In this document: in pieces, positions 61,788-64,000 of the stretch
How positions within the stretch are numbered: the stretch's first letter is position 1
How the letters are laid out: every line of letters starts with the position of its first letter
Source: Rubrobacter calidifluminis
GTDB lineage: Bacteria > Actinomycetota > Rubrobacteria > Rubrobacterales > Rubrobacteraceae
Direction: 5' to 3'
NCBI RefSeq assembly: GCF_028617075.1
Contig: NZ_JAQKGV010000014.1
Coordinates: forward strand, 1 to 64,000
Length of the DNA stretch: 64,000 nucleotides
Position numbers and translations under genes: made by a program
The notes under the pieces: generated by a model
What the model saw: only the letters and a program-made list of their open reading frames with translations
Told to the model about the DNA's origin: nothing
Database searches by the model: none

Positions 61788-61901
61788 TGGAGCAACTTTC
61801 TGAGCGGTGGATTGCCTGGCACCGGACCCGGCCCGGATATGTTTTTCCGGGCGGATCTCTTCTTGCGTGTCTGGCGGGCTTTTGGAGCCGGAGGTGTGAG
61901 G

Positions 61902-63185
61902 ATGATGGTGCAGGAGACTGAAACCGGCGCGGCTGTACTCGCTGCGGGCTTCGGGGAGAGGATGCGGGACTGTGGCAGACCCAAGCCGCTCGTGCGGGTG
62001 GGTGGTCTGACGCTTCTGGAGAGGACCGTGCGCACGCTGAGGGCGGGTGGGCTCGAGGGGCCGGTGGTCGTCGTGGTGGGCTACCGGGCCGAGGAGGTTT
62101 CGCGGTTCTGCGAGGAGAGAGATCTCGCGGTGAGGGTGGTCGAGAACCCGGACTATCCGCGGGGCAACGGGACGTCGGTACTGGCTGCGATTGATCATCT
62201 ACCGGAGAGGTTCGTGGTCTCCATGGTGGATCACGTACATAGTCCGGAGGCAGTGCGCAGGCTTCTCGTCCAGCGGGGGGAGTTCGTTGCGGCGGTGGAC
62301 AGTCGGCCGCTGTTTGCGGATCCTGCCGAGGCCACCCGGGTAAGGCTGCGGGGCGGGGGCGTGGTCGACTTTGGTAAGGGGCTTACGCCCTACGACGCGC
62401 TGGATGCGGGGCTGTTTTTGTGCTCCCGCAGTGTACTGCAGAAGCTCTCCGGCGAGGAGGATGGACCGCTCTCCTGGAACGAGCTGAAACGGAGGTGGCT
62501 TGCACAGGGAGGACGGATAGAGGCAGTAGACCTCGACGGAGCGCCGTGGACTGACGTGGACACGCCGGCCGACATCGAGCGGGCGCTGGAAGCCATCCTG
62601 AGCTGGGCCGCATCCGGCAATGACGGCTTCGTCTCGCGACACTTCAATCGCAGGCTGAGTCGCCGGGTGACCCGCCGGCTGCTCGGCACCCCGGTAGCGC
62701 CGGATCACGTGAGCCTGGCCAGCTTCGCGCTGGCCGCGGCGGGGGCGTTCTCGATCTTGCGTGGCCGGATGAGGCTCGGGGGGGCGCTGGTACAGCTATC
62801 TTCGGTGGTGGACGGCTGCGACGGGGAACTCGCCCGGGCCCGGCTCGAGTCCTCCCCGAGAGGGGGCGTGCTCGACGCAGTCCTGGACCGCTGGTCGGAT
62901 GCTCTCGTGATCTCCGCGCTCGCCGCACGCCGAAGGTCAGCGCAAATCCTCGGCTATCCGGCGCTCGCCGGAGCGTTGCTCGTACCGTACACCAGGGCCC
63001 GCTGGGAGGCGACCATCGGCAAAATACCGCGCAGTTTCACGGGCCTCGGCGCGACCCGCGACGTGCGGCTGGCGATCCTCGCTCTCGGCGCACTCCTCGG
63101 GCGTCCTGCTCCCGCCCTCGGTGCCGTCGCTCTCCTCTCCAACGTCGAAGTGGTACGCCGGCTGGCCGGACTACCGGGCTTCTGA
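61902..63185 (+). CDS. Bifunctional inositol-1-phosphate cytidylyltransferase/di-myo-inositol-phosphate-phosphate synthase
   Basis: 427 aa from ATG 61902 with GGAGG upstream (a longer TTG frame exists). N-terminal nucleotidyltransferase (VLAAGFGERMRDCGRPKPLVRVGG, VVGYRAEEVSRFCEE, ...MVDHVHSPE...). C-terminal CDP-alcohol phosphotransferase with DGCDGELARARLESSPRGGV, where D-x2-DG-x2-AR-x8-G-x3-D-x3-D is intact, plus TM helices. The fused enzyme activates inositol-1-phosphate with CTP and condenses it with another to give phosphorylated di-myo-inositol phosphate. A separate phosphatase is not seen. Known as a heat-stress solute pathway in Rubrobacter. Confidence 0.92.
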   Translation: MMVQETETGAAVLAAGFGERMRDCGRPKPLVRVGGLTLLERTVRTLRAGGLEGPVVVVVGYRAEEVSRFCEERDLAVRVVENPDYPRGNGTSVLAAIDHLPERFVVSMVDHVHSPEAVRRLLVQRGEFVAAVDSRPLFADPAEATRVRLRGGGVVDFGKGLTPYDALDAGLFLCSRSVLQKLSGEEDGPLSWNELKRRWLAQGGRIEAVDLDGAPWTDVDTPADIERALEAILSWAASGNDGFVSRHFNRRLSRRVTRRLLGTPVAPDHVSLASFALAAAGAFSILRGRMRLGGALVQLSSVVDGCDGELARARLESSPRGGVLDAVLDRWSDALVISALAARRRSAQILGYPALAGALLVPYTRARWEATIGKIPRSFTGLGATRDVRLAILALGALLGRPAPALGAVALLSNVEVVRRLAGLPGF

Positions 63186-63203: not shown

Positions 63204-63212
63204 TTATCCACC
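63204..63212 (+). other. Near-consensus DnaA box (TTATCCACC)
   Basis: One mismatch to TTATCCACA, 11 bases before the palindrome with two perfect boxes. Confidence 0.55.
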
Positions 63213-63218
63213 GTCTGG

Positions 63219-63252
63219 CCATCTTATCCACAACATGTTGTGGATAAGATGG
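63219..63252. repeat. Perfect 34-bp palindrome of two inverted DnaA boxes
   Basis: Each arm reads CCATCTTATCCACAACA on its own strand. It contains TTATCCACA (63224-63232) and its reverse complement TGTGGATAA (63239-63247). It lies between the convergent IPCT/DIPPS and Nudix genes, with no T-run, so a plain terminator seems a poor explanation. It could be a DnaA-titration or replication-control site, or a cruciform/terminator. Confidence 0.75.
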
Positions 63253-63269: not shown

Positions 63270-63911
63270 TCAATCGGGCTTCCAGCCCAATCGGACGAGC
63301 AACCCGGCGGTCATCGCCGCCGTCGCCCCCCATATGTTGTGATCACCGACCGAGAAGACGGGAACCTCGTACTCGCGCCCGTCGCGCCGCCAGACTATCT
63401 CCCGGAAGGTCTCGGGAGCCATCAGTACCTCGAGCGGGACGGTGAACACCTCCTGGACCTCACCGGGCGAGGAGAGAGAGTACTCCGCACCTTTGGGCAA
63501 CAGGCCGACGTAGGGGCTGACCAGGAAACCCGAGGCCGGGATGTACATCTTCTCCAGCCTCCCGAGAACCTCGACCCGGGAGGGGTCGAGCAACACCTCC
63601 TCGTGAGACTCGCGCAGCGCGGTCTCCATAAGAGAGGAATCCCTCGGCTCGAACCGGCCGCCCGGAAACGAGATCTGACCGGCATGGTTGCGCAGGCCCT
63701 CCTTTCGCAGGGTGTAGATGATCCTCTTCTCACCGCGGACCACCGGAATGAGCACGGCGGCCTCCCGCACGCGTGCCCCCGCGGGGGGCACCCTCGGTCG
63801 GCGCTTTCCCGTCTCGAGGTCACGCGGAGAGAACCTCTCGTACACCTCGCGCCAGTTGGGCAGCGGTCGGGATACAGCCTCGCGCAGACGCCTATCAAAC
63901 CCGTCCTCCAT
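63270..63911 (-). CDS. Nudix hydrolase, CoA-pyrophosphatase type
   Basis: 213 aa. Nudix box in GGRFEPRDSSLMETALRESHEEVLLD (G-x5-E-x7-REx2EE type), followed by LGRLEKMYIPASGFLVSPYVGLLP of the NudL/CoAse group. It would cut pyrophosphate bonds in CoA or nucleotide derivatives. ATG 63911 is the probable start; the same frame stays open to the window edge (63986 region), so a longer start cannot be excluded. Upstream bases 63912-64000 hold no feature I can identify. Confidence 0.88.
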   Translation of the reverse strand: MEDGFDRRLREAVSRPLPNWREVYERFSPRDLETGKRRPRVPPAGARVREAAVLIPVVRGEKRIIYTLRKEGLRNHAGQISFPGGRFEPRDSSLMETALRESHEEVLLDPSRVEVLGRLEKMYIPASGFLVSPYVGLLPKGAEYSLSSPGEVQEVFTVPLEVLMAPETFREIVWRRDGREYEVPVFSVGDHNIWGATAAMTAGLLVRLGWKPD

Positions 63912-64000
63912 AGGGCTAAATATAGCCCATGGGCCCTCCCAGCGGCGAAACCTGACCATCCGGGACCAACCATCGGGCACACGCAAAACCGTCGTCGGGT

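Follow-up and report, generated by a model that had tools for sequence, protein, structure and literature searches.

The palindrome at positions 63219-63252 of a 64,000-nucleotide stretch of Rubrobacter calidifluminis DNA (hereafter the window) is best explained as a regulatory DNA site that the Rubrobacteraceae conserve in essentially one copy, and not as a gene end signal. Our favoured explanation, to which we give a probability of about 45%, is that it represents a control site for DnaA that overlaps with one for NrdR, an arrangement that would probably make either DnaA activity or a promoter nearby responsive to dATP.

Anatomy of the element

A first-pass annotation of the window, made from the letters alone, described a perfect 34-bp palindrome of DnaA boxes between convergent genes, and this description is borne out. 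The palindrome, CCATCTTATCCACAACATGTTGTGGATAAGATGG, consists of two 17-bp arms without a mismatch. It lies between a plus-strand gene that ends at 63185 and a minus-strand gene that ends at 63270. These neighbours, given here for context only, encode a MobA-like NTP transferase/CDP-alcohol phosphatidyltransferase fusion (61812-63185; Pfam PF12804 and PF01066) and a NUDIX hydrolase (63270-63986, start uncertain; PF00293). The two exact DnaA boxes (TTATCCACA) that had been reported in inverted arrangement are indeed there: box II at 63224-63232 on the plus strand and box I at 63239-63247, which is on the minus strand here and, once the element is read in its own direction, points against boxes II and III. 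They are separated by the six-base spacer ACATGT (63233-63238), which reads ANATNT family-wide. The near-consensus box that had been noticed 11 bases away is box III, TTATCCACC, at 63204-63212 on the plus strand and oriented as box II. The gap between boxes III and II is 11 bases in the window (63212 to 63224) and 12 in most relatives; their start-to-start distance is 21 bp, or two helical turns, in most genomes and 20 in that of the window.

Conservation is confined to the inner 24 bp of the palindrome (63224-63247), a core that can be written TTATCCACA-ANATNT-TGTGGATAA. The 5 bp at the outer end of either arm (CCATC/GATGG) are peculiar to the window's genome. A 16-mer that resembles an NrdR box, CCACAACATGTTGTGG (63228-63243), spans the spacer and reaches 5 bp into each of boxes I and II.

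Copy number within the genome

The window's own genome (3.09 Mb in 54 contigs) was searched throughout for exact TTATCCACA. It holds 25 copies: 19 around dnaA/oriC on another contig, C9 (four at C9:39737-39781 and 15 at C9:42088-42460), two in the palindrome and four isolated singles. When one mismatch is allowed, there are 207 matches to the DnaA box as against 95 for a reversed control pattern. The palindrome is the sole clustered exact-box site outside the dnaA/oriC region, and the clustering exceeds chance expectation. It had been considered beforehand that the palindrome might recur at many gene ends, but the genome-wide count finds it only once. That neither dnaA nor dnaN is nearby, which had spoken against an oriC, also holds: the oriC reading is rejected because oriC lies on C9, next to dnaA, with many boxes. 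The four boxes at C9:39737-39781 (L002-L005), upstream of dnaA, form an inverted array of their own (-> -> <- <-) with 3-bp gaps.

Conservation in the Rubrobacteraceae and beyond

Conservation in other Rubrobacter, which had been proposed as a check, extends throughout the family. With up to three mismatches, the core is present in 37 of 39 Rubrobacteraceae genomes and in all 22 of those that are at least 90% complete, with one copy per genome save for two genomes that carry an extra three-mismatch match. A search of the 39 family genomes for inverted pairs of exact boxes lying 0-25 bp apart finds them at the dnaA/oriC region, to which the N6 pair elsewhere must be added; in those closed genomes whose pairs were listed in full, no further inverted pair was seen away from oriC.

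Outside the family, the core with one mismatch occurs in only five genomes of a sample of 396 from the phylum. Across 84,980 species the exact core is found on 32 contigs, 19 of them from Rubrobacteraceae, and a search of viral contigs for the exact core found none. The 13 remaining contigs, which were read by eye, carry the exact hybrid palindrome mostly in AT-rich genomes and among mixed neighbours; one palindrome is situated upstream of an NrdD-like gene and one at dnaA-dnaN. An exact hybrid palindrome stands at 1412-1435 of a Peptostreptococcaceae MAG contig (L246), upstream of a gene whose start resembles that of the anaerobic reductase NrdD.

Alignment of 36 oriented copies from the family reveals a conserved block of about 74 bp, AG-TTATCCACA-ANATNT-TGTGGATAA-N8-(AA)CG-GTGGATAA-nTG-...-TGTAACAAG-NNN-TTAAC, on both sides of which conservation drops to background. 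Within these copies it is the sequence itself that is conserved, and not pairing alone. Of the 36 relatives, 34 have an exact box I, and TTAT on its side is invariant in all 36 though it lies outside the NrdR 16-mer. About a third of the relatives differ in the first two or three bases of box II. Box III is found in 35 of the 36, either as TTATCCACC/T/G or as TTATCCCCC/T, the latter being a poor DnaA box present in eight genomes. It is missing only in G016, a Rubrobacter taiwanensis genome (locus L141, contig L237), where TTATCCACT stands instead and shares one base with box I. G008 and G012 carry symmetric substitutions (TTATCCACG..CGTGGATCA and TTATACGCA..TGCGGATAA) that preserve the dyad.

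The invariant spacer and the NrdR box

The four fixed positions of ANATNT (A, AT, T) are identical in 36 of 36 relatives; they formed part of the mismatch search, but not of the pair search that left the spacer free, and the latter recovered ANATNT as well. A pair of DnaA boxes has no need of a fixed spacer, and the spacers of the oriC N5 pairs in the same genomes vary. The invariant spacer is not a DnaA feature, and a plain reading of the element as two DnaA boxes is therefore insufficient. The first-pass annotation had overlooked both this invariance and the match of the spacer to NrdR boxes, of which ANATNT is the centre. NrdR is the best candidate for the protein that reads it.

An NrdR matrix was built exclusively from the family's nrdRJ promoters (60 boxes from 30 promoters, L092-L121), in which two conserved NrdR boxes, AAAATGTGGTGT and CCAGATGTGGTGT, lie 14-15 bp apart, some 30-70 bp before nrdR, and nrdJ follows nrdR. 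The 16-mer of the window, CCACAACATGTTGTGG, obtains 16.6 bits with this matrix, and the element's 16-mer in general (CCACAANATNTTGTGG) obtains 14.7-16.6 bits in 34 of 36 genomes, a range reached by a single one of the 899,100 background windows; the score on the arms is partly forced, since the matrix is symmetrised, mixes half-sites and takes its columns as independent. The training boxes themselves average 18.4 bits, with a minimum of 12.0. To remove the contribution that the DnaA arms force, the arms were held fixed and all 4096 spacers were scored: the observed spacers rank 6, 9, 11, 12 and 16. Evidence that is independent of the arm score comes from the four spacer positions and from a partner box. 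About 20 genomes of several genera bear, on the far side, a weaker NrdR-like box at a distance of exactly 24 or 25 bp, where it is a top secondary match of the matrix near the element.

According to the literature, it is the form of NrdR carrying both dATP and ATP that binds DNA, and NrdR is reported to require a pair of boxes. Box spacings of 14-17 and 24-27 bp are tolerated (PMC12051234). A second NrdR-like box at either of these distances is absent in the window's genus, and it is lost in lineages g9 and g10 too. There is no ribonucleotide reductase gene near the element, whose neighbours are of the NUDIX, transferase and SufT-like kinds, and nrdRJ is located elsewhere. A generic NrdR pattern, ACANNANATNTNNTGT, yields scattered matches across the window's genome and no additional nrd operator. 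A link between DnaA and ribonucleotide reduction is known from E. coli, where DnaA regulates two reductases (PMC11317965).

Near-identical hybrid palindromes also occur upstream of nrdR in two other actinobacterial families (f54 and f6; L087, L088 and L089). In L087 and L088 they are divergent from a lexA-like gene; here the overlap of DnaA and NrdR boxes falls within a normal nrd operator. Many of the family's nrdRJ promoters have a TTAAC-N6-TTAAG direct repeat upstream of their NrdR boxes. Locus L091 (G346) carries two NrdR-type palindromes, ACACGACATGTTGTGT and CCACAACATGTTGTTG, 16 bp apart and upstream of a tRNA-like sequence, with no reductase gene seen in the surroundings.

Gene surroundings

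NUDIX, inositol-phosphate-synthase, SufT-like (PF01883) and HhH-GPD genes recur around the site across the family, and the locus is thus related by descent family-wide. The immediate neighbours differ between lineages. In at least nine genomes the SufT-like gene follows the site directly, and in four the gene that follows is inositol-phosphate synthase; the window's genus, g9 and G016 have the site between two convergent gene ends. Among five genomes with the convergent layout (G000, which is that of the window, G027, G014, G015 and G016), the 24-bp palindrome is about 95% identical (92-100%), whereas identity in the flanks is close to what chance would give, with 34% over 48 bases on the left and 31% over 30 bases on the right. 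This disparity indicates purifying selection on the site where no promoter role is possible. Moreover, since the core is kept amid random flanks, both upstream of genes and between convergent ends, it is neither a terminator nor a simple operator.

A further motif, TGTAACAAGnnnTTAAC, is found downstream of the palindrome; the lineages that conserve it are mainly those in which a gene comes next. Its reading as a site of the MtrA/OmpR type (GTAAC-N6-TTAAC, an 11-bp direct repeat) is kept only as a lead because the motif (TGTAACAAG) is lost in the window's genus. In most genera (for example at L127, L126 and L080), TGTAACAAG-NNN-TTAAC stands beside the palindrome with its 11-bp period, and TTTGTAACA is conserved upstream of the oriC boxes (L041, L042 and L056). 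Both look like half-sites of the MtrA/OmpR family; that of Corynebacterium glutamicum MtrA is RTAACa (PMC6265350). Two GGATAA repeats were considered as a promoter with -35/-10 spacing and rejected, each matching at four of six positions by eye and the scan calling no promoter.

Chromosomal position

Six closed chromosomes have the site at a distance from oriC of 0.382-0.428 of their length, in G028 on the opposite arm. The GC skew switches at about 0.45-0.55 in the three closed chromosomes sampled, beyond the site, which is thus ter-proximal yet not at the terminus. GC skew had been proposed earlier as a way of placing the palindrome relative to oriC. The distance does prove to be conserved, but this constancy is unspecific: the control gene recA, at 0.448-0.508, is about equally constant (a range of 0.06 vs 0.046 for the site), so that gene order alone may explain it, and we do not count it as evidence. 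The distance of nrdR from oriC is looser (0.11-0.26). An actinobacterial dif pattern, with up to three mismatches allowed, has no match in seven genomes, namely the six closed Rubrobacteraceae chromosomes and that of the window.

Alternative explanations

The element may instead be a site for DnaA alone, of the DARS or datA type, at which DnaA bound to the inverted pair and box III would be reactivated or inactivated, and the conserved spacer would reflect DNA shape. Exact consensus boxes in DARS-like orientations, a single intergenic copy kept even between convergent genes, and the invariant TTAT on the left, outside the NrdR 16-mer, all agree with this. However, the spacings of 6 and 12 differ from the 5 and 3 of both E. 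coli DARS cores, three boxes would titrate little beside the 19 at dnaA/oriC, and the reading explains neither why ANATNT is invariant when the oriC N5 spacers vary nor why a partner lies 24/25 bp away. We consider it unlikely. Another reading is an ordinary operator, at a promoter of the SufT-like/HhH-GPD (AlkA-like) block that NrdR and/or DnaA would regulate and that would survive as a relic where other genes have intervened. It would account for the genomes in which the site directly precedes the SufT-like or the inositol-phosphate-synthase gene, for the downstream TGTAACAAGnnnTTAAC being kept mainly where a gene follows, and for the two NrdR-like boxes of some 20 genomes. This possibility is doubtful, since conservation ends with the 74-bp block, beyond which there is only background and no constant promoter ahead of the gene, and since three genera keep a convergent-end site that is 92-100% identical amid random flanks, which is unlike a relic.

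A bidirectional transcription terminator, or an RNA hairpin, between convergent genes appears highly improbable. A 15-bp stem closed by a 4-nt loop is predicted for the transcript (-40.4 kcal/mol, z -5.7), but any perfect palindrome folds, and the conservation concerns sequence rather than just pairing. The terminator was rejected because the element is single-copy, because the scan called no T-tract at it and because most relatives carry it upstream of genes. Preservation of the dyad by the symmetric substitutions in G008 and G012 would suit the operator of another dimeric protein, or a recombination site such as dif, with a half-site that happens to coincide with a DnaA box. The half-site would then have to equal the genome's own oriC box at nine of nine positions by coincidence, and we regard this as quite improbable. 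The dif version was rejected on two grounds: the element is devoid of Xer-type/dif arms, and its position (0.38-0.43) falls short of the skew switch in all three of the chromosomes that were sampled.

A proposed mode of action

TTAT outside the NrdR 16-mer requires DnaA, while the spacer requires something else. This led us to favour an overlapping DnaA/NrdR site. Judged from its sequence, the element is very likely to be bound by DnaA, and binding by NrdR is more likely than not. As at the DARS cores of E. coli, DnaA would sit head-to-head on the inverted pair, boxes I and II; its binding to box III would be weaker. NrdR carrying dATP plus ATP would recognise the overlapping 16-mer and shut DnaA out, occupancy by the two proteins being probably mutually exclusive. 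The deoxynucleotide pool would thereby set whether DnaA is engaged at the locus, and the site may in this way tie the timing of chromosome copying to nucleotide supply.

In the window's genus, where the site lies between gene ends, the non-promoter context suggests that it would act on DnaA itself, through its exchange, its activity or a local complex. In most other genera the site is also upstream of the SufT-like (PF01883) or the inositol-phosphate-synthase gene; this layout allows for a neighbouring-promoter output, and the site may control a promoter there. Replication control as the output of the element is proposed tentatively, at somewhat less than even odds. A stronger version is speculative and, in our estimation, rather unlikely: the element would be a checkpoint site where NrdR, as a dATP sensor, contends with DnaA for one palindrome, and the nucleotide pool would gate DnaA reactivation or sequestration away from oriC, at one site per genome of the family.

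DnaA control of the DARS/datA type has been worked out in E. coli relatives. The element offers a 24-74 bp target with which to test for DnaA reactivation sites outside the Proteobacteria, in a deep-branching actinobacterial lineage, and it lends itself to testing whether the supply of deoxynucleotides bears directly on control of the initiator.

Comparison with known systems

Read from the MG1655 sequence, the core of DARS1 is TTATCCACT-N5-TGTGGATAA-N3-TGTGTATTA and that of DARS2 is TTATTCACC-N5-TGTGGATAG-N3-TGTGAAGAA. In both, box I faces the other way from boxes II and III and the spacing is equal (PMC5742627). The element likewise has three boxes of which the first is reversed relative to the other two (box III being weak in 8 of 36 relatives and absent in G016), and it is non-coding, away from oriC and conserved in sequence across the family; its chromosomal position is roughly kept as well, a constancy that recA shares. 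It differs by its spacings of 6 and 11-12 (5 and 3 in the E. coli cores), by a box III that is often weak and by the overlapping NrdR-like box. We do not class it as a DARS because the spacings differ; a functional resemblance is possible. The likeness to datA/DARS-type sites put forward in the first-pass annotation thus stands as regards single copy, family-wide conservation and the box orientations of the DARS core, but not as regards spacings, the weak box III and the small titration capacity.

With datA and with the clusters of Bacillus subtilis and Streptomyces coelicolor, the element shares DnaA boxes that are intergenic and outside oriC. Those sites are described as larger clusters that serve in DnaA inactivation or in repressing untimely initiation (PMC5742627, PMC4585315), whereas the element has three boxes and is ter-proximal rather than oriC-proximal. 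Two exact boxes and one near-box, set against 19 exact boxes at dnaA/oriC, do not make a titration cluster. E. coli DnaA favours tandem boxes 2-3 bp apart (PMC11317965), and the element has none.

NrdR operators resemble the element in its 16-bp palindrome centred on ANATNT and, in about 20 relatives, in a partner at 24-25 bp, a spacing that NrdR tolerates. Unlike them, it adjoins no reductase gene, has lost the partner in the window's genus and has arms extended to full DnaA boxes. Finally, a triple of boxes at the oriC of the Rubrobacteraceae (-> N5 <- N11 <-) shows the same orientations as the element and a similar spacing; oriC has variable spacers and about 15 boxes, whereas the element has N6 and a fixed spacer.
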